Positions 12,986-25,475 of a stretch of 64,000 nt of DNA are shown here, one piece after another; the first letter of the stretch is position 1, and every line of letters begins with the position of its first letter. The notes under the pieces are model-generated. The model saw only the letters and a list, made by a program, of their open reading frames with translations, was not told the origin of the DNA and did not search any database. The translations under genes and the position numbers were made by a program. The DNA comes from Draconibacterium orientale. Its GTDB lineage: Bacteria; Bacteroidota; Bacteroidia; Bacteroidales; Prolixibacteraceae. The stretch is from the NCBI RefSeq assembly GCF_000626635.1, contig NZ_CP007451.1:2108001-2172000 (forward strand). Reading direction: 5' to 3'.

Positions 12986-14380
12986 ATGGAATTACCATTT
13001 GCAGAATCATATAAAATTAAGATGGTGGAGCCCATCTGGAAAAGTACGCGTGAACAGCGCGAAGAGTGGATAAAAAAAGCGAACTACAACCTTTTTAATT
13101 TACGAAGCGAACAGGTTTTTATCGACCTGCTGACCGATAGCGGAACAGGCTCGATGAGTCAGAATCAGTGGGCCGCAATAATGACCGGCGACGAAAGTTA
13201 TGCCGGATCATCATCGTATTATCATTTAAAAGATGCGATAAAAAATATCCTTGGTTTCGATTACTTTTTGCCAACACATCAGGGGCGCGCTGCCGAAAAT
13301 GTGTTGTTTTCGGTGTTGGTAAAAGAAGATGATGTGGTGCCGGGAAACAGTCATTTTGATACCACAAAAGGCCACATTGAATACCGTAAAGCAAGTGCTG
13401 TCGATTGCACTATCGACGAGGCTTTTGATACCGAATCGTTGCATCCGTTTAAGGGAAACATCGATTTGGAGAAACTTGAAGCCGTGTATTCAACACATCC
13501 GGCGGGGCAAATCCCTATGGTTATTGTAACAGTTACCTGTAATACTTCGGGCGGGCAGCCGGTGTCGATGCAAAACCTGCGCGATGTGCATGCTCTGTCG
13601 CAAAAATACGGAATTAAAGTGGTGTTCGATTCGGCGCGGTTTGCCGAAAATGCCTGGTTTATTCAGCAACGCGAAGATGAATACCGGAATAGTACCATCA
13701 AAGAAATTGTTGCTGAAATGTTTTCGTATGCCGATGCCATGACCATGAGCAGTAAAAAGGATGGTATGGTAAACATTGGCGGATTTATTGCCATGAAAGA
13801 CGAGGAGCTGCTAAAACAGGCTTCGGTTTTTAATATCATGTTCGAAGGATTTAATACCTACGGCGGAATGGCCGGCCGCGACATGAATGCGCTTGCTGTT
13901 GGCCTGGACGAGGTTACAACAGGATATTACCTGGAAAATCGAATTCAGCAGGTGGCTTATTTGGGCAATAAGTTGATTGAATGGGGAATTCCGGTGCAGA
14001 AACCCATTGGCGGGCATGCCGTTTTTGTAGATGCCAAAAAGTTTTTGGGACATGTGCCCAAAGAAGAGTACATCGCACAAACACTGGCGATTGAACTCTA
14101 CCTTGAAGCAGGAGTTCGTGGCGTAGAGGTAGGAACTTTGCTGGCCGACCGTGATCCCAAAACGCGCGAAAACCGTTATCCGAAACTGGAAATGCTACGG
14201 TTGGCAATTCCGCGCCGTACCTACACCAATAATCACATGGATGTGGTGGCGGTGGCGCTAAAAAATATCTTCGATCGGAGGGAAGAAATTGATCACGGAT
14301 ACCGCATTAAAAAGGAAGCGCCAATAATGCGCCACTTTTCGGTGGAGCTGGAACATGCCGAAAAGGTGCATAAGAAATAA
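12986..14380 (+). CDS. tnaA: Tryptophanase (tyrosine phenol-lyase family)
   Basis: This 464-residue PLP enzyme of the TnaA/Tpl family splits tryptophan into indole, pyruvate and ammonia. Signatures are FIDLLTDSGTGSMSQ, PTHQGRAAEN, the PLP-Asp region FDSARFAENAWFI and the lysine pair in MSSKKDGMVNIGG (Lys257-Lys258; the second is the Schiff-base lysine by comparison). Two positions separate it from tyrosine phenol-lyase: the residue after HF is Asp (FDTTKGH), as in TnaA, where Tpl has Thr; and in VRGVEVG a hydrophobic residue takes the place of the substrate-binding Arg of Tpl. The call for tryptophan is therefore preferred but not proven. No aromatic permease is adjacent. Confidence 0.86.
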   Translation: MELPFAESYKIKMVEPIWKSTREQREEWIKKANYNLFNLRSEQVFIDLLTDSGTGSMSQNQWAAIMTGDESYAGSSSYYHLKDAIKNILGFDYFLPTHQGRAAENVLFSVLVKEDDVVPGNSHFDTTKGHIEYRKASAVDCTIDEAFDTESLHPFKGNIDLEKLEAVYSTHPAGQIPMVIVTVTCNTSGGQPVSMQNLRDVHALSQKYGIKVVFDSARFAENAWFIQQREDEYRNSTIKEIVAEMFSYADAMTMSSKKDGMVNIGGFIAMKDEELLKQASVFNIMFEGFNTYGGMAGRDMNALAVGLDEVTTGYYLENRIQQVAYLGNKLIEWGIPVQKPIGGHAVFVDAKKFLGHVPKEEYIAQTLAIELYLEAGVRGVEVGTLLADRDPKTRENRYPKLEMLRLAIPRRTYTNNHMDVVAVALKNIFDRREEIDHGYRIKKEAPIMRHFSVELEHAEKVHKK

Positions 14381-14389
14381 GCCGGTTTG

Positions 14390-16924
14390 TTATAGCTGAT
14401 CGGCGTAATGATGGGTGAATTCTTTAAAGCTTAAGGCATAGGATTCACCCATTGTTTTTTCATATTTCGTACAGAAAGTCTCAAAGTTGAACTTCGCTAA
14501 ATGCGAGTTATTTGCTTTTTGTAAAGCCCAAATTTGCAGGTAAAGCGCTTCTTCGTTTAGGTCGTCGTAATCTAAAATTCGCTGCGATACTTTTTCAACT
14601 TCTTTGGGTTTGTTCTCTTTTTTGTAGTCGGAAGCCAGTTTTAACAGGTTGTCAATTACCTGGTTGCCGGTGAATCCTCTTATTTCGTCGAGCCATGGCC
14701 AGTCGATACCTTTTAATAACCGGCCTTTTTTTACCATATGGAAAAACAACTGTAGCTGTTGCCGCGACATTCCCTGTGGAATTTTACAAAGTTTGAAGGC
14801 TTCCACGTAGTCGCAGAAAAATTCTTCCGACAGATTTAAGTGTAAATAACCATTTTGTGAGGTGATTTCTACTTTGCTAAAATGCGCCAGAATTTTGCGC
14901 AGTTTATTCAGTGTAACCGCACGGTTGTTGGCTACTTTTTTGTCTTCAATTCCGTACCACAGCGTTTCGTTCACATCGGGAATAGGCGCACCGATTCCAT
15001 TCTTCATACTATAGATGAGGGTGAAAATAAACAGCTCGCGCACTTTTGGCGTGAATAGTTCTGTAACATCTTCGTTTTTGTTATTTATCGCCTTGAATTC
15101 GCCAAAAAGCTGAATCTGATTTTTTGACGGTGTTTCTGGTTTGTTGACAAGTATCGAATGTTTTCGTGCATTCATTTTTCGTAGCAGAACAAAAATCAAC
15201 ACCAGAAAAACAAAAGCGATGGATCCCAGAATGGCAACAAAGGTTTTGGTTGACAGTAAGGTGGTTGGATTTTCTGTGGCTTGATAAGTGATTTCTTCAT
15301 CAAGTGCCAGCCGGTTTATTTCTTCGTTGCCCAGCGGGCGGTTCCAGATGTACAGGTTGTCGATATAGCCTCTCAGACTTGCTCCGCCGGAAAGGGCACT
15401 GCCAATAAAAATATCGTTGGTGCCTGAGTAGGGCGGATGGCCGTCGGAACCACCAACATATTGTCCGTTCACAAAAATCGCCTGCTGGCCGGTTTCTAAA
15501 ATATAGCGCCAGGTAAGATGGTACCATTTGTTGGTTTCCAGCAGTTCGTCCGACATAAAATCGTTGGCCCAAAGGCCGAAATAAGGATGACCCGAGCGTA
15601 AAACCAGGTGAAGTCCTCTGCGGTAACCCTGTTCGTCGTTTCCCAGAATAGCGTTGTCGCCAAATTCCAAAATATCAATAAATTTTACAAAACAACTAAT
15701 GGTAAAACTACTGTTTGGCAGGCCATACTGTTCGGGATGGCCAATGTTAATATTGGCATTCTCCGGCAAGCGAAGTACATTTCCTCGGTCAATATCCTGG
15801 CTAAAAGTAAAGCCGTTTCCGTCGAAAGTACGTTCGGGATTTACCACGTCAGCCAATTCGTTCTCGAAATGAAAACTGGCCATTAACCCCCGGTTAAGAT
15901 CGAGCGGAGTTGCCAGTATCGAATACTGTTCGGGTTTTACCATTTCGGCAGTGATGGTAAGTTGCGAAGGTGTTAAACTAAAACCCGGAATAAAGGGCGT
16001 TAAAATCATTTCTTCGCCACCACGAATGGGAAAACTGAACTTTCCGCCGGTGATCAGCGTTTCGGCATTTTTCCAGAAAACACGTTCAAAGTTTTTCCCT
16101 ACTGTTCGTACCTGTCCTTTTACTGCCTCAAAAGAATTCAGCTGTTCAATAATAAAACCAAAGTTGTAAATGCTCCTTTCAACAAAAAGGAAATTGGGTT
16201 TTTTGCCATATTTGGTCCAGCTTTCCAGCAGGAAATTAATGTACTCAGGAAACAGGTTCCGGTTTACCTGTGATGTGGAAACACCTGTTGGTAAACGGTC
16301 GAAATTATTGATTTTGAAAAGCTCTTTATTGATGTTGGATTCCCGTTTCAGAATGACCGAATTAGGCGTTATCTGACTGGCGCCAATTTCAAGGGCATAG
16401 TTCGAAGTTTCGTGTAAAATCCGGCTTTCGTTTTCTATGTCTCCGTCAACAAAAAAAATCACCCTGCGGTTGGCTTGTACCAAATATTCTATCGATGGCC
16501 ATCGTTCGCCCTGTGGTAAATAGAATATCTGATCGGAAAGGCTGCTCGCGTTAATTACCGAATCGAGCACATGAACATTACCCGAAAAATTAATAAAAAC
16601 CGGAATTACTTTTGATTCTTCTGCTTCCAGTAACAACTCTATTTTTTCAAGAATAGCAGAAAACGGAACTGCGCTGTTTTGTAAGCTGATTACTTTTTTA
16701 TTTGATTCAACAGTCAATTCAATTCCGGTCCAGTTGTTACTTTTTATAAAGTCGAAAAGCCGGTTGTTTTGGTATTCGGCGGGTGTTAATTGGCCAATCA
16801 AAAAGGAGTTGTCGGCAAAATCGTTGGCTTTGCCCGGTAAACAAAAGGCAACTCCGGCAAAAAGCAATAAGAATAGCTTCAATATAATCTTGTTCGGCAT
16901 CCTATCTGTTCTTTTGATTGGCAT
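14390..16924 (-). CDS. Membrane-spanning one-component regulator: PLC-like barrel, LamG sensor, TM, winged-helix/BTAD-like output
   Basis: An 844-residue protein with an unusual domain order. A signal peptide (residues 1-33; an alternative start is the second Met at 16900) is followed by a periplasmic region resembling a PI-PLC-X-type barrel (about 35-330, with VIPVFINFSG and WPSIEYLVQANRRVIFFVDGD), then a LamG/concanavalin sandwich (346-541, including GLMASFHFENELADV and YIDNLYIWNRPL). One membrane helix spans about 558-582. The cytoplasmic part has an OmpR/SARP-like winged helix (608-700: QLFGEFKAIN, FTPKVRELFIFTLIY, NRAVTLNKLRKIL) and an all-helical BTAD-like tail. It should bind DNA directly in response to a periplasmic ligand. 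It is divergent from the cytochrome-SUMF1 operon, its likely target. Confidence 0.75.
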   Translation of the reverse strand: MPIKRTDRMPNKIILKLFLLLFAGVAFCLPGKANDFADNSFLIGQLTPAEYQNNRLFDFIKSNNWTGIELTVESNKKVISLQNSAVPFSAILEKIELLLEAEESKVIPVFINFSGNVHVLDSVINASSLSDQIFYLPQGERWPSIEYLVQANRRVIFFVDGDIENESRILHETSNYALEIGASQITPNSVILKRESNINKELFKINNFDRLPTGVSTSQVNRNLFPEYINFLLESWTKYGKKPNFLFVERSIYNFGFIIEQLNSFEAVKGQVRTVGKNFERVFWKNAETLITGGKFSFPIRGGEEMILTPFIPGFSLTPSQLTITAEMVKPEQYSILATPLDLNRGLMASFHFENELADVVNPERTFDGNGFTFSQDIDRGNVLRLPENANINIGHPEQYGLPNSSFTISCFVKFIDILEFGDNAILGNDEQGYRRGLHLVLRSGHPYFGLWANDFMSDELLETNKWYHLTWRYILETGQQAIFVNGQYVGGSDGHPPYSGTNDIFIGSALSGGASLRGYIDNLYIWNRPLGNEEINRLALDEEITYQATENPTTLLSTKTFVAILGSIAFVFLVLIFVLLRKMNARKHSILVNKPETPSKNQIQLFGEFKAINNKNEDVTELFTPKVRELFIFTLIYSMKNGIGAPIPDVNETLWYGIEDKKVANNRAVTLNKLRKILAHFSKVEITSQNGYLHLNLSEEFFCDYVEAFKLCKIPQGMSRQQLQLFFHMVKKGRLLKGIDWPWLDEIRGFTGNQVIDNLLKLASDYKKENKPKEVEKVSQRILDYDDLNEEALYLQIWALQKANNSHLAKFNFETFCTKYEKTMGESYALSFKEFTHHYADQL

Positions 16925-16938
16925 GATAATATCCTTAA

Positions 16939-17017
16939 TTTGATATTATTTTTAGCCCAAATATATTAAAATATACGAATATTGATATTTTTTATCAAAA
17001 AAATTAATTTTATCAAA
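16939..17017. promoter_or_regulatory. Cluster of TTTGATA/TATCAAA half-sites in the divergent promoter region
   Basis: The half-site occurs as TTTGATA (16939-16945), TTGATA (16982-16987), TATCAAA (16993-16999) and TATCAAA (17011-17017). The second and third form an inverted repeat with a 5-bp spacer; the third and fourth are direct repeats 18 bp apart. This lies between the regulator gene and the operon it probably controls. Confidence 0.4.
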
Positions 17018-17146
17018 GTGCTTTTTAATCAATATATTATCGAAAAAATTAAGATTAAATTAAGAGGTCGTTAAGACACATGTAGGACAAATATTAAGAA
17101 GCAGCTAATTACGCGCGTGTATAATTGCGGTTCAAATTGACGACGA

Positions 17147-18670
17147 ATGACTGATAAGACAATTAAACGCAAGCATTACATGCTGTTTATTGCGGGAGGA
17201 CTGAGTGTAATACTCTTTTTGCTGTTATTTAATAAAACAGTTGACTACACTTCAACGAACGATTTTTGTAATTCATGTCATGTTCATTCACACGCCGAAA
17301 CCAGTTGGAAATTATCAGTCCATCATAATACACCAAGTGGTGTTTCTGTTAAATGTGTTGATTGCCACTTACCGCCCGAAGATCAAACAGCCCGTTTTTT
17401 AACCCGGAAAGCGTATCATGGTATCCATGATTTGTATGCCTACCTTACAATGGATCCGGAAGAGATTGATTGGGCGGCTAAACGATCGGTTGAAGCATCG
17501 AAACATTTTGTTTACGAAGATGGATGTTTGAAATGCCATACGAATATGTTTCCGTCAACGCTGAATGAACAGGGTTCCTTGCAACATATAAAATATATCC
17601 GCGATCCGGAGAATAATTCGTGTATGCAGTGCCACCATGATGTTGGGCACTACCGCGGAGAAACCAACTTGCTGGTGGGACTGGAAGAGACGGTAGATCC
17701 GGCTGAAATTTTTACCGAGCCTGCTAAAGTAACGGCTTTTGAAACCTTTGAGGAACAGATACCCGGAACGGCGGTATCGTTTAAAATGATTGCCATTCCG
17801 GGTGGTCAGTTTAAAATGGGAAGCCCGGCTGATGAGCATTATCGCGAACGGGATGAAGGTCCGGTGCGCGATGTGGAAGTGGGTAATTTCTGGATGGCAG
17901 AAATTGAAGTTTCGTGGAATGAATACCTGGCCTTTTTTACAGCTACCGGCTCGCAGGGACGAAAAGAAGCTGTAGAAGTTGATGAAGAAACCGATGGCGT
18001 TTCGGGAGCAACACCACCATGGGGAGCACCCGATCAGGGATGGGGAAAAGGAACACGTCCGGCCATTACCATGAGCCATCATGCAGCACAAACGTATTGC
18101 CGTTGGTTAAGCCAGGAAACCGGAAGAAAATACCGCCTGCCAACCGAGGCCGAGTGGGAATATGCAGCGCGCGGAGGAACACAAATGCCCTATTTCTTCG
18201 AGGGGTCGCCTAACGATTTTGAAGCCGATGGATTTATTAAAAAATTATTCGGTAGCAATAAAGAAGTGATCAATCAGTATGTGATATCGCAATTAAACAG
18301 TCCGAATAAAACACAGCAGCCCGATGTGGTTGAGGCCAATCCGTATGGTTTAAAAAATATGCTGGGTAATGTGGCTGAGTTCTGCCTCGATTATTACGAT
18401 CCGCAGGTGTATGGAAAATATCCGAAAGGCGTAGTGAAAAACCCGAGAGGGCCACGCAGCGGAATGGAACATGTAGTTCGGGGAGGTTCGTTCCGCAACT
18501 CGCCAAAAGACTTGCGTGTGGCAGCCCGCGATTTCACTAAAACCGATGCCTGGTTAGTAACCGATCCGCAAATCCCAAAAAGTATCTGGTGGTATTCTGA
18601 TACCAAAAGTGTTGGATTCAGGGTGGTTTGCGAATACAATGAAGAAATGTTAACAACAGAAAAAAATTAA
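17147..18670 (+). CDS. Tetraheme NapC/NrfH-like cytochrome fused to a SUMF1 (FGE-fold) domain
   Basis: The 507-residue fusion has one N-terminal membrane anchor (residues 11-28) and four CxxCH heme motifs: CNSCH (41-45), CVDCH (70-74), CLKCH (127-131) and CMQCH (159-163). This matches NapC/NirT/NrfH quinol dehydrogenases, which pass electrons from the quinol pool to periplasmic partners. From about residue 205 a SUMF1/formylglycine-generating-enzyme fold follows (MIAIPGGQFKMGS, RLPTEAEWEYAARGG, NPYGLKNMLGNVAEFCLDYY, VRGGSFRNSPKDLRVAARD, VGFRVV). The FGE active-site cysteine pair expected near RGGS is missing, so sulfatase activation is unlikely. It is the first gene of a tight operon; the Tat-exported oxidoreductase starts 9 bp downstream. 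Confidence 0.9.
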   Translation: MTDKTIKRKHYMLFIAGGLSVILFLLLFNKTVDYTSTNDFCNSCHVHSHAETSWKLSVHHNTPSGVSVKCVDCHLPPEDQTARFLTRKAYHGIHDLYAYLTMDPEEIDWAAKRSVEASKHFVYEDGCLKCHTNMFPSTLNEQGSLQHIKYIRDPENNSCMQCHHDVGHYRGETNLLVGLEETVDPAEIFTEPAKVTAFETFEEQIPGTAVSFKMIAIPGGQFKMGSPADEHYRERDEGPVRDVEVGNFWMAEIEVSWNEYLAFFTATGSQGRKEAVEVDEETDGVSGATPPWGAPDQGWGKGTRPAITMSHHAAQTYCRWLSQETGRKYRLPTEAEWEYAARGGTQMPYFFEGSPNDFEADGFIKKLFGSNKEVINQYVISQLNSPNKTQQPDVVEANPYGLKNMLGNVAEFCLDYYDPQVYGKYPKGVVKNPRGPRSGMEHVVRGGSFRNSPKDLRVAARDFTKTDAWLVTDPQIPKSIWWYSDTKSVGFRVVCEYNEEMLTTEKN

Positions 18671-18679
18671 AAAAATACC

Positions 18680-20020
18680 ATGAGTAAAGATCAACTATCA
18701 CGCAGGAATTTTCTGGAGAAATCGGCACTAATAGGTGTTGCCGGAGTTATTGGCTTAAATGCACTGAGTTCTTGTAAAAACGCAACAAAAGAAGTTGATT
18801 ACGAGTTTCCCCCGTTGCTTGATCAGGCTCCCGATGGAAAGAAACTGAAAGTGGGATTGGTAGGCTGCGGAAACCGGGGTACCGGTGCTGCGCTGAACTT
18901 TTTGGCTGCGGGGCATGATTTACATCTGGTTGCTCTTGCTGATGTTTTTGAAGATAAGGTTTGGGATTGCCGCGATAAATTATTAAAACAACGTGTTGAA
19001 GTGCCGGAAACCAACTGTTTCTGGGGATTCGATGCTTATAAAAGTTTGTTGGATGTGGATTTGGATGTAGTAATTTTGGCTACACCTCCGCATTTTCGCC
19101 CTATGCATTTTGATGCTGCGGTGCAGGCAAAAAAACATGTATTTCTGGAAAAACCTGTTTGTGTTGATCCCGTTGGAGCGCGCCAGATAATGGCCACTTC
19201 AAAAAAAGCGGAAAGCATGGGCTTATCGGTTATTACCGGAACTCAGCGTCGCTACAGCCGCGATTACCTCGAAACTTACCGCCAGGTGGCATCGGGAGCG
19301 ATTGGTGATTTGGTGTCGGCAAAAGCCTACTGGCTGCAGTCGCATGTCTGGTTCCGCACCCGCGAAGAAGGCTGGAGCGATATGGAATACATGCTGCGTA
19401 ACTGGAACAGTTTCTGTTGGTTGGGCGGCGATCATATTCTGGATACACACGTTCATAACATCGATATTGTAAACTGGTTTATGGGAAAAACACCGGAATC
19501 TGCAATTGGTTTTGGCGGACGTCACCGAAGGTTAACCGGCGACCAGTACGATTTCTTTAGCATCGATTTTGATTTTGGAAATGGTATTTCGTCACATAGT
19601 TTTTCGCGTCAGATTGATGGTTGTGCCAACCAGCTTGGCGAAGTGATCATGGGAACTGAAGGTTACACGAATTGTAAAAATACGGTCTTCAACCACGATG
19701 GTTCGGTGAAATGGACCTACGAATATCCGAAAAATAAGGATGGCCGTTCTACCGGCGTTGTAGCGGTTTCGCCATACGTGCAGGAACACATTCACCTGGT
19801 AACTTCTATACGTACAAACAAGCCGGTGGTTGAGGCATACCGCACTGCCGAATCAACATTAACAGCGGTTATGGGACGAACAGCGGCTTACACCGGGCAA
19901 AAAGTAACCTGGGAAGATATGATGTCTTCGAACGAAAAGCTGGGACCTAAGAAGTACGAAATGGGACCGGTTGACATGGAATTTCCGGTACCGTTGCAAG
20001 GGACACAACATAAAGCATAA
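18680..20020 (+). CDS. Tat-exported Gfo/Idh/MocA family oxidoreductase (lipoprotein)
   Basis: The 446-residue protein begins with a twin-arginine signal (SRRNFLEKS, residues 7-15) ending in a lipobox-like LSSC. The NAD(P)-binding Rossmann region starts with KVGLVGCGNRGTG, and the family EKP motif appears as FLEKPVCVDP. LDTHVHNIDIVNWFMG carries the conserved catalytic-type histidine region. Export by Tat implies folding with a bound cofactor before translocation, as in glucose-fructose oxidoreductase and GH109-type enzymes. The substrate is presumably a sugar or glycoside, but nothing in the sequence specifies it. It sits between the cytochrome-SUMF1 fusion (9 bp) and a glycosyltransferase (9 bp), so coupling to the heme protein as electron acceptor is plausible. 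Confidence 0.88.
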   Translation: MSKDQLSRRNFLEKSALIGVAGVIGLNALSSCKNATKEVDYEFPPLLDQAPDGKKLKVGLVGCGNRGTGAALNFLAAGHDLHLVALADVFEDKVWDCRDKLLKQRVEVPETNCFWGFDAYKSLLDVDLDVVILATPPHFRPMHFDAAVQAKKHVFLEKPVCVDPVGARQIMATSKKAESMGLSVITGTQRRYSRDYLETYRQVASGAIGDLVSAKAYWLQSHVWFRTREEGWSDMEYMLRNWNSFCWLGGDHILDTHVHNIDIVNWFMGKTPESAIGFGGRHRRLTGDQYDFFSIDFDFGNGISSHSFSRQIDGCANQLGEVIMGTEGYTNCKNTVFNHDGSVKWTYEYPKNKDGRSTGVVAVSPYVQEHIHLVTSIRTNKPVVEAYRTAESTLTAVMGRTAAYTGQKVTWEDMMSSNEKLGPKKYEMGPVDMEFPVPLQGTQHKA

Positions 20021-20029
20021 AAGTAGCAT

Positions 20030-20947
20030 ATGAAACTATCCGTTGTTATACCATTATTTAACGAAAGCGCCGTTTTATCGCTGCTGATAAACGAATTGCA
20101 CCATAACCTGATGACTTTGGGTGAAGCTTTTGAAGTGGTTTGTGTTGACGACGGAAGTGCCGACGATACACTTCAGCAGCTTCTTGAAATGAAAGCGGAG
20201 AAGCCCGAGTTGAAAGTGGTATCGCTGTCGCGGAATTTTGGATTGCAGGCTGCTATTGCTGCCGGTTTGGAATATACCAAAGGCGAGTATGTGGTAGTAA
20301 TGGATGGCGATATGCAAGATCCGCCAGAGCTGATAAAAGAGCTTTTCAAAAAAATAAGTACCACCAAAGGCGATGTGGTTTCGGCCGTTCGTTCGGAGCG
20401 CGGCGAAAAGTTTAGTAAACGTTTTTACATCAACGTATTTCATAAAATTTTCCGGAATATTTCGGAAGAACAACAGCTGGAGCAGGCCGGTAACTTTTGT
20501 ATAATGAGCCGCAGAGCAGTTTCAGCCATATTAAAGTTTACCGAGCAAAACCGTTATTTCCCGGGTATCCGGAATTTTATCGGTTTTCAGCACGACACTA
20601 TTGTTTACAATCGTCCGGATAGAGCCGAAGGCCAGGCCAAAATGACCAGCAAAAAATTGTTTGCGCTGGCCGCTGATGCTATTTATTCGTTCTCGAAATG
20701 GCCCATTAAACTGTGTTTGTATTTGGGATTGCTGGGCGTGGTAGTTTTTCTGTTGGCCATTGTTTATACGCTGATTTCAAAATTTACAGGTTTGGCACCA
20801 ACTGGTTGGTCGTCAACCTTGTTGGTAATCAGTTTTTTTGGATCGGTGCAACTTACTTTTTTGGGACTTATTGGCGAATACATTTACCGCATTTACAAAG
20901 AGGTGCAAAAGCGCCCGGTTTACCTGGTAAAGGAGGTTTATGAATAA
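20030..20947 (+). CDS. Family 2 glycosyltransferase, DPM1/GtrB-like, with two C-terminal membrane helices
   Basis: This 305-residue enzyme has a GT-A catalytic domain: LSVVIPLFNES at the start, VDDGSADDT for nucleotide-sugar binding, SLSRNFGLQAAIAAGLEY, and the metal-binding MDGDMQDPPE. Two hydrophobic segments (about residues 228-250 and 262-285) anchor it in the inner membrane. Proteins of this type transfer a sugar from UDP- or GDP-sugar to polyprenyl phosphate, producing a lipid-linked donor for a periplasmic GT-C enzyme. The next gene, overlapping by 8 bp, encodes such a polytopic GT-C-like protein, which supports that pairing. The sugar is not predictable. Confidence 0.9.
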   Translation: MKLSVVIPLFNESAVLSLLINELHHNLMTLGEAFEVVCVDDGSADDTLQQLLEMKAEKPELKVVSLSRNFGLQAAIAAGLEYTKGEYVVVMDGDMQDPPELIKELFKKISTTKGDVVSAVRSERGEKFSKRFYINVFHKIFRNISEEQQLEQAGNFCIMSRRAVSAILKFTEQNRYFPGIRNFIGFQHDTIVYNRPDRAEGQAKMTSKKLFALAADAIYSFSKWPIKLCLYLGLLGVVVFLLAIVYTLISKFTGLAPTGWSSTLLVISFFGSVQLTFLGLIGEYIYRIYKEVQKRPVYLVKEVYE

Positions 20948-22883
20948 ATTAACCGACATATTAACTGCACGCAATGTGTTTCGCATCAGCTTATTTGTGG
21001 CTGCTGTAATCTTGCTGTTGTTAGCGCCTAAGGCTGCTGTTAATGTCGATGAAATGTTGCATTACCCGCACGCCAAACGAGTGGTAAACTGGTACTTTAC
21101 CGGTGGCGAAGATGTTTCGTGCCTGGATACTCCGGTTCACAACCTGAAATATTACGGTCAGTCGGTTGACAATCTCACAGCTTTAGTTAATCGCGTGTTC
21201 TCCATTGAGAATGAATTCCAGACAAGGCATTTTACAGGGGCTGCATTTTTCTTTTTCCTGTTGCTTTTTGCCGGTTTGCTCGGAAAAGAAATAAGTAACT
21301 CGTATTGGGTAGCCGCAACTGTGGTTTTATCGCTGATGCTCACACCACGTTTGTTTGGTCAGGCATTTGGCAACTTAAAAGATATTCCGTTTGCAGCCGG
21401 TTATGTGGCCGGCATTTGTTTCATAATAAAATACTTAAAACAATTTCCGAAAGTGAACCGGAAAACAGTGATTGGCCTTGGACTGGCCATCGCTTTTACC
21501 TGTTCGGTGCGCATTGGCGGATTAATACTGTTTGCCTATCTTGCATTGGGAATTGTGGTACTCATTCTTTCGAAGCCTTTTTTACTTAAATATATCGTTT
21601 CAACTAAATCTTGTTTTGTAAGGTTACTGGGCCAGTGGCTGGTAATAGTACTCGCAGGTTATTTCCTCGGACTATTATTCTGGCCCTTTGCCTTGCATGA
21701 CGTGGTGCGTCATCCGCTCGAAAGTTTATCGGTAATGGAGCACTACAAAATCAGCATTAAACAGTTGTTCGAAGGCGAGGTCATCTGGAGCTCATCGCTG
21801 CCATGGCATTACCTTATAAAATGGATTTTAATAGCAACACCCGAGTTTGTTTTACTCGGGATCCTATACTTTGGAGCCTTTTTAACCTATAAATTTTCTA
21901 AACCATTAAGCGAACAACTCAGCATTGAGTTGTTCGTGTTTTTTACACTACTTTTCCCGGTGGTGTATGTAATTGTTATCGGAGCAAACCTATACAGCGG
22001 GATGCGGCAAATGTTGTTTGTGCTCCCGGTAATGGTTGTTTTGGCAGTGACCGGTTTATTTCAATTCGCAAAATTAGGTATTAGCAAGAAGGTGAAAATT
22101 CCGGCAGTGGCGCTGTTTTTTTTGTTGATGATATTGCCCTTTCAACATCAGGCGAAAACTTTTCCGGCAGATTACATTTATTTTAATGCCATTTCGGGAG
22201 GAAACAAAGCGGCGTGGAGTAATTACGAGTACGATTATTATTTCCATGGAATGAAAGAGGCGACGGATTATTTAATTGCCGAAATTGGCGATAAGGAAGC
22301 CATAGTAGCGATGAATTGCCAGTTGCCAAATTATTTCGAGAAGAAATCCAACATCGATTTTCAATATACGCGCTACCTTGAACGGAGCTCGGTAGATTGG
22401 GATTATGCTTTGTTTGGCGTAAATTATATTTATCCGTATTTGCTGAAAAACGATACATGGCAATCTTCCCGAATTGTAAAAACCTTTTATCATAAAGGTA
22501 ATCCGCTGGTGGTACTGTTGGAAAGACAGTCGAAGGAGGATTATAAAGGGATCGACTTGTTGAAGCACCGACACTGGGACGAAGCCGAAGTATTATTAAA
22601 AAAGGAACTGGAAACAGATCCCAATAATGTTTGGATGTTTGTAAATTTGGCGAATTTGAAACTGGCACAACGCAAATATGCCGAGCTTGACGAACTGTTA
22701 GCGGATGGAAGGGCAATACATCCTTATTACGAGCCGTTGTATTTGATTGAAGCGCAAAAGTTTTTTGATCAGGGTAAGTTTGACGAAAGTTTTGCAGTTT
22801 TAAACGAGTTGATTGAAGTGAATCCGCGCTACAAAAATGCGGCAGCACTGCTTAAGAAAGTAAAAGAGAAATTAAATAAATAA
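20940..22883 (+). CDS. Polytopic GT-C/ArnT-like glycosyltransferase with C-terminal TPRs
   Basis: The 647-residue protein has about ten membrane helices from residue 15 to 405. The first periplasmic loop contains an acidic pair in NVDEMLHYPHA, the position of the catalytic DE/DD motif of GT-C transferases that use polyprenyl-phosphate sugars. A soluble region follows, ending in TPR-like helices (about 535-645: WDEAEVLLKKELETDPNNVWMF, then ESFAVLNELIEVNPRYKN). It overlaps the preceding GtrB-like gene by 8 bp. The pair probably moves a sugar across the membrane and onto an extracytoplasmic acceptor. The acceptor may be a product of this same operon, but this is inference. Confidence 0.78.
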   Translation: MNKLTDILTARNVFRISLFVAAVILLLLAPKAAVNVDEMLHYPHAKRVVNWYFTGGEDVSCLDTPVHNLKYYGQSVDNLTALVNRVFSIENEFQTRHFTGAAFFFFLLLFAGLLGKEISNSYWVAATVVLSLMLTPRLFGQAFGNLKDIPFAAGYVAGICFIIKYLKQFPKVNRKTVIGLGLAIAFTCSVRIGGLILFAYLALGIVVLILSKPFLLKYIVSTKSCFVRLLGQWLVIVLAGYFLGLLFWPFALHDVVRHPLESLSVMEHYKISIKQLFEGEVIWSSSLPWHYLIKWILIATPEFVLLGILYFGAFLTYKFSKPLSEQLSIELFVFFTLLFPVVYVIVIGANLYSGMRQMLFVLPVMVVLAVTGLFQFAKLGISKKVKIPAVALFFLLMILPFQHQAKTFPADYIYFNAISGGNKAAWSNYEYDYYFHGMKEATDYLIAEIGDKEAIVAMNCQLPNYFEKKSNIDFQYTRYLERSSVDWDYALFGVNYIYPYLLKNDTWQSSRIVKTFYHKGNPLVVLLERQSKEDYKGIDLLKHRHWDEAEVLLKKELETDPNNVWMFVNLANLKLAQRKYAELDELLADGRAIHPYYEPLYLIEAQKFFDQGKFDESFAVLNELIEVNPRYKNAAALLKKVKEKLNK

Positions 22884-22905
22884 TACGAATTAAAAATTTA
22901 AAGAA

Positions 22906-23151
22906 ATGAAGAGAGTAATTGCAATGATCGGATTGTTTATTATGAGTTTACCAACCATGTTGCTGATGGCGCAAGACCAGGGAACATACATTGATAATTT
23001 GGGCGCTCAGGACAGTTCGTATTTGGAAGAAGTGCCGTTGGCCGGTGCTGAACAAGCTTCAGGTTCCAACTCAACTGTAATCATTATTATTGTTGCTGTT
23101 GTAGTTATCGCAGCAGCTGTTTTCTTTTTTATGAAGAAAAAGAAAAAGTAA
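22906..23151 (+). CDS. Small single-pass membrane protein of unknown function
   Basis: I do not recognise a family. The 81-residue product has an N-terminal signal peptide (through about residue 22, ending LLMAQ), a short acidic exposed segment of about 30 residues, one very hydrophobic helix (STVIIIIVAVVVIAAAVFFF) and a terminal run of five lysines. The topology should be N-outside, C-inside. It begins 22 bp after the GT-C/TPR gene, and the next feature is a strong terminator, so it is the last gene of the cytochrome-SUMF1 operon. Its layout recalls small membrane subunits or a membrane-anchored acceptor, but no function can be assigned. Confidence 0.7.
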   Translation: MKRVIAMIGLFIMSLPTMLLMAQDQGTYIDNLGAQDSSYLEEVPLAGAEQASGSNSTVIIIIVAVVVIAAAVFFFMKKKKK

Positions 23152-23300
23152 TACCAATTGTTCTTTAAAGTGCCGTTAGGAATTTTAAAGTTACAATGGT
23201 TTATGCCGATTTTACAATAAAGGAGCAAACTGAACAGAGTGAAAGTGTGCGACAATTTATTGTTACATCGGTGTAATGTAGTGAAGTCTGATTATAAAAA

Positions 23301-23328
23301 AACCGGCTTAATTTAAGCCGGTTTTTTT
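23301..23328. terminator. Terminator ending the 17.1-23.2 kb operon
   Basis: AACCGGCTTAA (23301-23311) and TTAAGCCGGTT (23313-23323) are perfectly complementary about one central T. A T run follows and an A run precedes it, so it can act on both strands. Confidence 0.85.
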
Positions 23329-23438
23329 ATGGTAAGATGTTTAATGAAATGGTTCTGTGGTTGTCGGGCTGCTTATTGCCAGGAATTACTCACACCCGTA
23401 ATCATATTTTAAACGCCCGAAAAATGCCACTTTTAGGC

Positions 23439-23666
23439 ATTAACAAATGTTTAAGCCCCTAAAAAATACTTTTTGTACACTTAAACAAATGGTTAAGCCT
23501 TTCCAAAATACTTTTTACTGCCTTAAATAAATGTTTAAGCCTCTCCGAAATACTTTTTGATGCCTTAAACAAATGTTCATGCCGTGAAAAAACATTTTTT
23601 TATACCTTAAACAAATGGTTATGGCATGTTTTAGGGGTAATTAGGGGCTTAAACAAATGTTTACGC
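23439..23666. repeat. 42-bp tandem array with TTAAACAAATGTTTAA cores
   Basis: The core hexamer CAAATG (TAAATG in unit 3) starts at 23444, 23486, 23528, 23570, 23612 and 23654, an exact 42-bp period across six units. Units share a near-palindrome CTTAAACAAATGTTTAAGCC, and the first four also share an AAATACTTTTTG-like second half. A degenerate seventh copy lies near 23695. On the minus strand one frame is open from about 23599 to 23459 and spells a heptad-like pattern (KHLFKAV, KSILERL), but it has no ATG. Confidence 0.88.
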
Positions 23667-23730
23667 TATTAAAAAATAAAAAGTGGGCTATTAACATCTG
23701 TTCACGTGATGATTGCCTGACTTTTTGCCT

Positions 23731-23769
23731 AAAATAGCCGGAATCGTATTTCCGATTCCGGCTATTTTT
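23731..23769. terminator. Strong bidirectional terminator hairpin
   Basis: A perfect 16-bp stem (23731-23746 with 23753-23768), rich in CCGGAATCG, has a 6-nt loop and A/T runs outside. It could terminate gltX, whose stop is 180 bp away on the minus strand. The remainder up to 23948 shows nothing else. Confidence 0.75.
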
Positions 23770-23948
23770 ATAAAGGTACTATATAAACTAATAGCAATAG
23801 CTGCATCAAAATTTATTGACTCACCCGGATTGGGCCTCTTTTCATATAGAGACGGAATGAGGGGGAGTTAACTGTAAATTTGCAGTAGTTTCATTGCTGT
23901 GGTGATTCCTGAGAATCATGAATGTTTTTTGTGTTAATGTGCTGTCGG

Positions 23949-25475
23949 TTATATAGTTTCGATTGCCGTTTTTATACGTGCAATGCTTTCGTCTTTACCC
24001 AGCAGCTCGCAAATTACAAACAAATCGGGGCCCATATTTCCACCAACAAGCGCCAGTCGCAGTGGATTCATAATGGCACCAAATCCCCATTCTCTTTCGC
24101 TCATAAATGCCGAGAAAACTTCTTTTATGGCATCGGCTTTCCAGTTTTCAACGGTTTCAAAAACGTTTACTATTTCAGTTAACTGGGCTGATGTATTTTC
24201 TTTCCAGCGCTTTTTCACTGTTTTTTCGTCGTACTCGGTCGGAGCCACAAAAAAGTAACTGCTTTGGTCCCACAATTCGGCAACAAATTCGCAACGTTCT
24301 TTAATTTCAGCAACTACGGCATTTATTTTTTCATCCGAAGCTTCCACGCCTTTCTCTGCCAATACCGGTTTGAATAACCCGGCAAGTTCCTCTACGGATT
24401 TTCCCTGGAAATAATGTTTGTTAAACCACTTGGCTTTTTCCGGATCAAAACGCGATCCCGATTTCACTACGCGTTCCAAACTAAAGATTTCTCCCAGTTC
24501 TTCCAGCGAGAAAAATTCCTGCTCTGTTCCCGGGTTCCAGCCCAGTAAGGCCAACAAGTTGATAAATGCCTCAGGGAAATAACCGTCTTCGCGGTATCCG
24601 CGCGAAACATCGCCGGTTTTCGGATCAGTCCACAGTAAAGGGAAAACAGGGAATCCCAGTTTGTCGCCATCGCGTTTGCTGAGTTTTCCTTTTCCAACCG
24701 GTTTTAAAATTAGCGGAAGATGCGCAAAACGTGGTTGGGTTTCTTCCCAGCCCAACGCTTTATACAATAAAACGTGCAGCGGCATCGATGGCAGCCACTC
24801 TTCGCCACGGATAACGTGCGAAATCTCCATCAAATGGTCGTCAACCACATTGGCAAGGTGGTAAGTTGGCATTCCGTCCGATTTAAAAAGCACTTTGTCG
24901 TCGAGACTTTTTGTGGTGTTAAAAGTTACGTTGCCACGAATCAGGTCGGTTTCCGAAACGTCGGTATCCGCGGGCATTTTAAAGCGAATTACATAAGCCT
25001 CGCCTGCTGCTATTTTTTGCTGAACTTCTTCTTCCGATAAGTTGAGCGAGTTATTCAGCTTGTCGCGTGTGCCAATTCCGTACGAGAAAGTTTCTTTATT
25101 GGCTTCGGCTTCTTTACGCAAAGCATCAATCTCCTCTGAAGTGTCGAAAGCATAATACGCCCAGCCGCTTTCTACCAGCTGATCGGCATATTTCTTATAC
25201 AACTCTTTCCGCTCACTCTGGCGGTAGGGGCCAAAATCGCCTCCAATGCCCGGGCCTTCAACCGGTATTAATCCGCACCAGTTCAGGCTTTCAATAATAT
25301 AATCTTCGGCACCCGGAACAAAACGGGTTTGGTCGGTATCTTCAATTCGGAGTATAAATTCGCCACCATGTTTCTTTGCAAACAGGTAGTTGAATAAGGC
25401 TGTTCGAACACCGCCCATGTGCAATGGTCCGGTCGGACTTGGGGCAAATCGTACCCGTACTTTTTTGTCGCTCAT
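23949..25475 (-). CDS. gltX: Glutamyl-tRNA synthetase
   Basis: The enzyme charges tRNA-Glu in the cytoplasm. I start it at the ATG at 25475 (MSDKKVRVRFAPSPTG); the frame is open for another 25 codons upstream, but the conserved protein begins here and the -7 box lies within the upstream stretch. The HIGH motif is in SPTGPLHMGG (residues 13-22) and KMSKS reads KLSKR (264-268). RIEDTDQTRF and the C-terminal anticodon-binding helices are normal, giving about 508 residues. It is monocistronic. Confidence 0.96.
   Translation of the reverse strand: MSDKKVRVRFAPSPTGPLHMGGVRTALFNYLFAKKHGGEFILRIEDTDQTRFVPGAEDYIIESLNWCGLIPVEGPGIGGDFGPYRQSERKELYKKYADQLVESGWAYYAFDTSEEIDALRKEAEANKETFSYGIGTRDKLNNSLNLSEEEVQQKIAAGEAYVIRFKMPADTDVSETDLIRGNVTFNTTKSLDDKVLFKSDGMPTYHLANVVDDHLMEISHVIRGEEWLPSMPLHVLLYKALGWEETQPRFAHLPLILKPVGKGKLSKRDGDKLGFPVFPLLWTDPKTGDVSRGYREDGYFPEAFINLLALLGWNPGTEQEFFSLEELGEIFSLERVVKSGSRFDPEKAKWFNKHYFQGKSVEELAGLFKPVLAEKGVEASDEKINAVVAEIKERCEFVAELWDQSSYFFVAPTEYDEKTVKKRWKENTSAQLTEIVNVFETVENWKADAIKEVFSAFMSEREWGFGAIMNPLRLALVGGNMGPDLFVICELLGKDESIARIKTAIETI

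Follow-up and report, generated by a model that had tools for sequence, protein, structure and literature searches.

Several described systems each resemble one part of a locus in the bacterium Draconibacterium orientale, whose two core genes encode a tetraheme cytochrome fused to a SUMF1-fold domain (CYT) and an exported oxidoreductase of the Gfo/Idh/MocA family (Gfo). The locus lies in a stretch of 64,000 nucleotides (hereafter the window; contig NZ_CP007451.1, positions 2,108,001 to 2,172,000) of a 5.13 Mb single-contig genome. NrfH (2j7a), of the NapC/NirT family, shares with CYT an N-terminal transmembrane (TM)-like helix, four CxxCH motifs, and an aligned Lys/Asp pair, which we take to be quinol-site residues in NrfH; unlike NrfH, CYT has His for Met at the first heme, a SUMF1 fusion, and a dehydrogenase as partner. 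FGE and PvdO share the SUMF1 fold (SUMF1/FGE domain PF03781 in CYT, E 1.3e-42; Foldseek match to PvdO, E 9e-16, with FGE also matched), but the Cys pair of FGE, presumably copper-binding, has no counterpart in CYT (GGSFRNSPKDL versus GGSFLCHESYC), and CYT and its relatives carry a clade-specific TDPQxPKSxWW loop. IolG, levoglucosan dehydrogenase, the BT_2158 glycoside 3-dehydrogenase, and DgpA resemble Gfo in fold, Gly-rich nicotinamide adenine dinucleotide (NAD) loop, and EKP motif, whereas Gfo is exported by the twin-arginine translocation (Tat) system, is tied to SUMF1, and scores under the cut-offs of the NCBIfam dehydrogenase models it matches. Carriers that receive covalent flavin mononucleotide (FMN) from ApbE (FMN_bind, DUF2271, DUF3570) have in common with the SUMF1 clade an extracytoplasmic D-x-x-[S/T]-x-[A/P]-[S/T] site and, in the heme-less relatives, linkage to ApbE, although the motif of the clade is mostly non-canonical. 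In passages from the main texts of two flavinylation surveys, the SUMF1 fold is not named as an ApbE substrate (0 occurrences of formylglycine, FGE, or Gfo).

Here we find that the real unit of this locus is a two-gene core, consisting of a NapC-type tetraheme/SUMF1 fusion and a Tat-exported Gfo. In a literature search with subscription journals mostly outside its coverage, none of the papers listed described a SUMF1–Gfo pairing, judged by title and abstract start, and no paper joined NrfH with a formylglycine-generating enzyme fusion or combined flavinylation with formylglycine. The two genes represent a conserved redox pair for which we found no description and for which the mechanism proposed below is plausible. 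We know of no solution to how Tat-exported NAD-type dehydrogenases dispose of their electrons, and a conserved SUMF1 partner with ApbE or fused hemes would be a concrete answer.

A conserved two-gene core

The core genes and the sites discussed below are as follows.

17147-18670, + strand: core gene 1 (CYT), membrane-anchored NapC/NirT tetraheme cytochrome plus SUMF1-fold domain, 507 residues
17267-17287, + strand: first heme motif of CYT, CNSCHVH, aligned with CxxCHxM of NrfH
17993-18013, + strand: D283-G-V-S-G-A-T289 in CYT, candidate FMN site, exact match to the published ApbE motif, putative function
18560-18592, + strand: TDPQIPKSIWW loop in CYT, signature of the SUMF1 clade, conserved, low-confidence in the structure model
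18680-20020, + strand: core gene 2 (Gfo), Gfo/Idh/MocA oxidoreductase exported by Tat, probable lipoprotein, 446 residues

Domains were called with Pfam and NCBIfam profiles on the proteins of the window. In CYT, a NapC/NirT domain (PF03264, E 1.4e-25, 90.5 bits, cut-off 24.1) and the SUMF1 domain form one protein. All four CxxCH motifs, together with K88 and D95, which align with the Lys and Asp of NrfH, are invariant in 30 aligned orthologues (alignment A1, made of the window and, without L065, 29 of the 30 full-length loci), and the residue aligned with the Met of the NrfH CxxCHxM motif is His47, a His in 37 of 37 sequences. The structure model (mean predicted local distance difference test, pLDDT, 73) has an N-terminal helix at 4-35, whose membrane placement was judged by eye, and a SUMF1 fold that is mostly confident. 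Loops 271-293 and 464-484 are predicted poorly (pLDDT <50) though strongly conserved, as might be expected if a cofactor or partner were missing; prediction is no better in parts of the heme domain, and we therefore claim no geometry from this model. Two assignments were rejected. A canonical nitrite-reductase anchor is contradicted by a score below the NCBIfam NrfH cut-off (E 1.6e-21, 76.9 bits, cut-off 134.2) and by a neighbor that is Gfo, not NrfA; an NrfH/NrfA-like pair, recognized by eye, is encoded at another place in the same genome. FGE-type sulfatase activation is contradicted by the absence of the active-site Cys pair, both in the alignment with FGE and in the conserved columns of A1.

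The fusion was found in 28 of 247 genomes of the order, D. orientale included (E <= 1e-40), mostly at full length and 45-57% identity, and is therefore not a chance open reading frame (ORF). For the comparisons that follow, we pooled the loci of the order-wide CYT genomes with named loci that one genome scan supplied and with some of those from a phylum sample of 395 genomes; loci differ in length and some contigs span only 3-6 kb, so that absences are soft. One locus that starts inside the gene (L076) was counted as heme-fused from its place in the tree, and a fragment at a contig end (L077) was dropped. NapC-fused forms make up a single clade of 40 in a 96-row tree (support 100/99). This fits one fusion event, in which NapC hemes would have been joined to SUMF1 once, in Bacteroidales and one other Bacteroidota lineage.

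In 39 of the 40 heme-fused loci, CYT has a Gfo gene no more than 600 bp away, the sole exception being L049; for L062 and L063, the opposite strand carries the closest copy. D. orientale itself carries a second such pair ~112 kb away, in which a CYT paralogue with 52% identity immediately precedes a paralogous Tat Gfo gene, with zero glycosyltransferases among the ORFs listed there and with rhodanese-like and YeeE-like genes (named by eye) in the surroundings. The pairing extends to relatives without hemes: Gfo is within 600 bp in 33 of 51 heme-less loci, against 1 of 41 loci with other SUMF1 proteins (controls L117-L157) in the same scan. These free SUMF1 proteins, apparently secreted and ~33-43% identical, stand directly before Gfo in Flavobacteriia, Sphingobacteriia, Chitinophagia, and Planctomycetota. 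In the phylum sample, which scored at most three and four candidates per genome and in which absences are thus also soft, 37 of 395 genomes had a SUMF1-clade match (E <= 1e-50) and 64 a Gfo match (E <= 1e-60). By manual count, Gfo followed directly downstream in 34 of 39 SUMF1-clade places (gap <= ~520 bp) and was divergent in one; neighborhoods were fetched for 23 of the 39, including the four without a listed Gfo, which biases this sample against the pairing. A different heme domain, PSCyt1, is fused to SUMF1 in two verrucomicrobial relatives (L086, E 9.6e-29; L099, E 8.8e-26). In L089, hemes are absent from the SUMF1 protein of the clade; in their place is a long N-terminal extension that matches FG-GAP weakly (20.5 bits, cut-off 26.9).

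The partner protein is a Gfo/Idh/MocA member (PF01408, E 1.1e-13, 52.4 bits, cut-off 24) with a Tat signal (TIGR01409, 22.0 bits, cut-off 16.7), and 64 of the 74 Gfo proteins have a Tat motif. Conservation extends to the NAD loop and the EKP motif, E157-K158-P159 and H259 being invariant in alignment A2, and the fold matches inositol dehydrogenases, YjhC, RgNanOx and, lower, GFOR. The protein scores below the cut-offs of all ten NCBIfam dehydrogenase models matched, the Tat-signal model aside.

A candidate flavinylation site and linkage to ApbE

ApbE recognizes D-x-x-[S/T]-G-A-[S/T], and in motif mutants Asp-to-Ala had a minor effect while Gly-to-Ala or Ala-to-Val left ~50% flavinylation (excerpt of PMC12052999). 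CYT carries this motif exactly, at residues 283-289. Across 93 clade members Asp283 never varies, and the residue at 289 is Thr in 70 proteins and Ser in the other 23; among the members chosen without regard to the motif, both residues are conserved in 91 of 91. Position 289 is the sole SUMF1-domain column that alternates between Ser and Thr under the thresholds used. The TDPQxPKS loop served as a retrieval pattern, so that its conservation is biased among loci retrieved in this way; the 283/289 site was not used for retrieval. The exact motif occurs in 6 of 40 heme-fused, 2 of 53 heme-less, and 0 of 39 other SUMF1 proteins (8 of 93 in the clade), and a looser form, D-x-x-[ST]-x-[AP]-[ST], in 37 of 40, 45 of 53, and 0 of 39, respectively. 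For these motif counts, two control loci, both with ApbE nearby and one (L146) also with Gfo, were later counted with the clade on the strength of its motif, which both carry; L121 and L146 are left out of the 91 above and the 104 below, and control counts elsewhere are given raw. Overall, the exact motif was found 9 times in 479,017 ORF residues from the loci, 8 of them at the 283-289 site of the SUMF1 clade. Among the reference alignments, A3 comprised the window and 32 of 39 references (without L094, L100, L108, L110, L111, L114, and L116) and A4 the window and 25 of 26 (without L094).

Linkage to ApbE sets the heme-less relatives apart. Within 8 kb, ApbE is encoded at 21 of the 51 heme-less loci, at none of the 40 heme-fused ones, and at 2 of the 41 with other SUMF1 proteins (heme-less versus other, Fisher 6e-5, raw and not kinship-corrected). 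Its placement varies: the gene may precede SUMF1, in the same or the opposite orientation, or follow either Gfo or a YceI-like gene. All 19 ApbE proteins scanned from the 21 linked loci match PF02424. To see whether ApbE tracks Gfo or SUMF1, we turned to a fresh set. In these 20 hand-picked Gfo loci of the phylum sample without a reported SUMF1 (L239-L241 from one genus; L243, L245, L247, and L250 from another), a divergent SUMF1 was found within 8 kb in 13, of which 11 also have ApbE, while two loci have ApbE without SUMF1 and five have neither. Position 289 is Ser or Thr in all 13, giving 104 of 104 with the 91 above, and position 283 is Asp in 10. Conversely, ApbE stands beside SUMF1 with Gfo absent within 8 kb in five loci (L087, L099, L106, L115, L199).

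Individual gene runs differ in their other members. L199, and similarly L087 and L115, has SUMF1, a YceI-like gene, ApbE, and cytochrome-bearing proteins in one run (YceI and cytochromes by eye), with Gfo not within 8 kb. In L209, SUMF1 is followed by Gfo, ApbE, a TIM protein, an MFS-like transporter, and a GMC-like oxidoreductase, the last two named by eye. The D. orientale genome has three ApbE genes, none of them within 8 kb of the window locus. One clusters with a 3-keto-disaccharide hydrolase, DUF6807, and two Gfo proteins (L238, C1:4168000-4175000), a second ApbE–Gfo link in this genome with zero SUMF1 among its ORFs. Another adjoins DUF3570, a known ApbE substrate (excerpt of PMC8238504).

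Proposed electron route and alternatives

We lean toward reading the core as a quinone-linked, extracytoplasmic sugar-oxidizing module, in which SUMF1 would relay electrons, possibly via a covalent FMN, through the hemes to menaquinone. In the chemistry that we infer, Gfo would acquire NAD and fold in the cytoplasm, leave through Tat, and stay attached to the membrane. There, on the extracytoplasmic side, it would oxidize one of the secondary hydroxyls of a glycoside, with a 3-keto compound as the most likely product. The 507-residue protein would dock on Gfo through its SUMF1 domain, which would take the electrons. An FMN attached by ApbE to Thr289 may carry them, splitting the hydride pair into single electrons, and the fused tetraheme NapC domain would pass them to menaquinone, the reverse of the usual quinol oxidation and downhill from the sugar. 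In heme-less relatives the SUMF1 protein would act as a free carrier, often with ApbE encoded nearby, and at the window locus the GT2, the PMT-like transferase, and the small membrane protein described below would perhaps build or present a glycan near the enzyme.

The 3-keto product is considered likely from the relatives of Gfo and from genes near CYT, which fit keto-sugar chemistry: a xylose-isomerase-like TIM protein in 17 of 40 loci (several at only 21-24% identity), ThuA in 6, and a 3-keto-disaccharide hydrolase in 3. Work published in Nature in 2024 reportedly concerns the breakdown of 3-keto glycans. In Agrobacterium, a protein of the sugar phosphate isomerase/epimerase type encoded next to a glycoside dehydrogenase is described as a 3-keto-glycoside eliminase (excerpt of PMC10628242), a parallel that supports the same product.

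A more specific proposal, which we rate as possible but short of probable, is that the SUMF1 clade is a new extracytoplasmic carrier, flavinylated by ApbE at Ser/Thr289, that would deliver electrons from the trapped NADH of Gfo to the respiratory chain, either free or fused to hemes (NapC in Bacteroidales, PSCyt1 in Verrucomicrobiota). If correct, glycosides would be respired extracytoplasmically by a modular system with members in at least three phyla. This would add a fold to the covalent-FMN proteins and assign a function to an FGE-like clade found in Bacteroidota, Planctomycetota, and Verrucomicrobiota.

Several observations weigh against these proposals. Pro replaces Ala in 31 of 40 heme-fused proteins, mostly as DAISGPT, and the ApbE-linked members (alignment A5, 19 of 21 loci, L092 and L104 not located) mostly read D-A-[VI]-T-R-P-[ST]; Pro at +5 dominates, as does Arg at +4 among heme-less forms. 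The canonical motif occurs in no called ORF of the 21 ApbE-linked loci, and the eight members that have it lack ApbE within 8 kb in the sequence covered. With such non-canonical sites at ApbE-linked loci, either ApbE accepts a changed site or its substrate lies elsewhere. Among the 13 SUMF1 proteins of the fresh set, 3 have Ala at 283 and 7 have Leu or Ala at +3; 4 of 39 control SUMF1 proteins also show D.....[S/T] at the 283/289 columns. ApbE stands beside Gfo without SUMF1 in L249, L256, and the D. orientale locus L238, and 18 of 51 heme-less loci have no Gfo within 600 bp (some contigs end). The best NCBIfam scores of Gfo are far under their cut-offs, at 73.4 of 355 bits for inositol dehydrogenase and 36.8 of 750 bits for the BT_2158 family, and assignment as a BT_2158-type glycoside 3-dehydrogenase was rejected on this score.

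A further such point is the direction of electron flow, as NapC-family proteins, NrfH included, usually oxidize quinol. This habit would suit a core pair that draws on quinol to reduce a keto-sugar. Given the potentials involved, menaquinol is probably not strong enough to reduce a ketone, and the named neighbor genes look catabolic, so that a reductase is the least probable of the readings considered here.

The irregular motif bears most on an alternative in which SUMF1 would do no more than dock or bind glycan, the target of ApbE would be a different protein, and the hemes would receive their electrons straight from Gfo or from a mediator. SUMF1 folds can be structural or ligand-binding, with PorK/GldK and a Treponema variable protein among the matches, and most copies of the motif are non-canonical. 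On the other hand, Ser or Thr is conserved at 289 in every one of the 104 members, ApbE stands beside SUMF1 without Gfo in the five loci named above, and 13 of the 21 ApbE loci have no called ORF within 5 kb of ApbE with even [ST]GA[ST], an absence that counts against another nearby substrate as well as against our flavinylation proposal; in the remaining ApbE loci, matches to [ST]GA[ST] are scattered, as in the Gfo NAD loop. We consider this alternative unlikely. It overlaps with the electron-relay reading except for the flavin, and the alternatives overlap one another, so that their probabilities need not sum to one.

The fused heme domains bear instead on a role of the SUMF1–heme protein in maturation or repair, in which Gfo would run a redox-neutral oxidation-elimination-reduction cycle with trapped NAD, and SUMF1 would reoxidize or activate enzyme stuck with NADH. 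Some enzymes of the Gfo fold run such internal redox cycles, GH109 being an example, and 2ixa and RgNanOx (6z3c) are among the Gfo matches; the SUMF1–Gfo pairing also parallels that of FGE with sulfatases. Levoglucosan enzymes, moreover, jointly act like a GH4 enzyme (excerpt of PMC7676230). Fusion of two different heme domains, NapC and PSCyt1, to SUMF1 suggests steady electron flow, however, and we think a maturation or repair role rather unlikely.

Accessory genes and the divergent regulator

The remaining features of the locus are listed here.

14390-16924, - strand: divergent LamG transmembrane regulator-like protein, 844 residues (PF13385, E 1.1e-18)
16925-17146, no strand: intergenic stretch from regulator to operon, without a Bacteroidota-type promoter pattern
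20030-20947, + strand: accessory GT2 polyprenyl-phosphate-type glycosyltransferase, 305 residues
20940-22883, + strand: accessory PMT/GT-C-like membrane transferase with TPR tail, 647 residues
22906-23151, + strand: accessory small protein of 81 residues, made up of a signal peptide, a short run of acidic residues, a single TM helix, and a Lys tail
23291-23333, + strand: intrinsic terminator, possibly bidirectional, from RNA folding

The GT2 protein is well supported (PF00535, E 3.2e-29; best NCBIfam match PgfS, E 7.6e-74, 248.7 bits, cut-off 500), and the PMT protein matches PF02366 at E 3.7e-5, in addition to TPR. Compared with GtrB/GtrS-like glycan modification, the GT2 match is strong and the PMT match barely over its cut-off (23.9 versus 22.7 bits). 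A GT2–PMT pair lies near CYT in 5 of 40 heme loci (the window, L047, L048, L051, L078), downstream of CYT in four and upstream in L051. These loci occupy three places in the tree as drawn, with weakly supported forks between them. The small gene with signal peptide, TM helix, and Lys tail follows PMT in the window, L047, L048, and L078, as well as on contig L216 (layout by eye). Of 247 genomes, 28 carry CYT, 29 carry PMT, and 10 carry both (Fisher p 3e-4, uncorrected for kinship), with the two close together in four of these ten; 19 of the 29 PMT genomes show no CYT. In 15 PMT loci away from CYT, GT2 directly adjoins in 2, lies within 2 kb in 3, and is absent in 10. The exact ApbE motif is present in 4 of the 5 GT2–PMT-linked heme loci (the window, L047, L051, L078) versus 2 of the 35 others (Fisher 8e-4, likewise uncorrected for kinship).

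The GT2, PMT, and small membrane proteins are a real but optional accessory, as shown by the glycosyltransferase-free paralogous pair and by the PMT genomes without CYT. A sequence-only reading of this DNA had treated the genes as a single system, to be judged by their co-occurrence in other genomes; CYT and Gfo do belong together (39 of 40), whereas the glycosyltransferases are linked to them in only 5 of 40 heme loci and a similar regulator in only 2 of 40. A dedicated glycan-building pathway of five genes, with the cytochrome feeding on a glycan made by the two glycosyltransferases, would be in line with the recurrence of GT2–PMT beside CYT in three tree places and with the small gene after PMT in four loci. 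We nonetheless judge it highly improbable, because the pair is missing within 8 kb at 35 of 40 heme loci, some of them cut short by contig ends, and because of the same paralogue and PMT genomes. An obligatory five-gene pathway is weakened in particular by the paralogue and these 35 loci.

The association of the LamG regulator with the core is weak. A similar protein occurs near CYT only in the window and L047, and the earlier suggestion that a LamG sensor reads the glycan is not supported. The C-terminal part of the regulator has one other relative in its own genome.

Borders and flanks of the locus

Five genes run from 17147 to 23151 with intergenic gaps of 9, 9, -8, and 22 bp; for this packing and its coordinates, the divergent LamG regulator, and the strong terminator, ORF calls and folding agree with the sequence-only reading, and the domain content it gave for six ORFs matches the Pfam and NCBIfam results. 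The terminator hairpin at 23291-23333 (-24.3 kcal/mol, z -8.5) was found by folding and was not listed by a simple terminator scan; it is A-rich before and T-rich after, and may therefore act both ways. The divergent region 16925-17146 has zero matches to TTTG-N17-22-TAnnTTTG, a pattern that occurs at chance level in the window, and sigma-70-like matches in 13500-24500 are no more frequent than expected by chance.

Just past the terminator lies a degenerate tandem array (23442-23621, 42-bp unit, 4.3 copies, 76% matches). A second strong hairpin at 23726-23778 (23725-23780 folds at -28.5 kcal/mol, z -8.0) separates this array from a glutamyl-tRNA synthetase-like gene, named by eye, on the opposite strand. 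On the other side of the locus, a tryptophanase/tyrosine phenol-lyase-like gene (12986-14380; PF01212, E 3.3e-85) ends beside the regulator, and a relative with 66% identity lies near CYT in L057.

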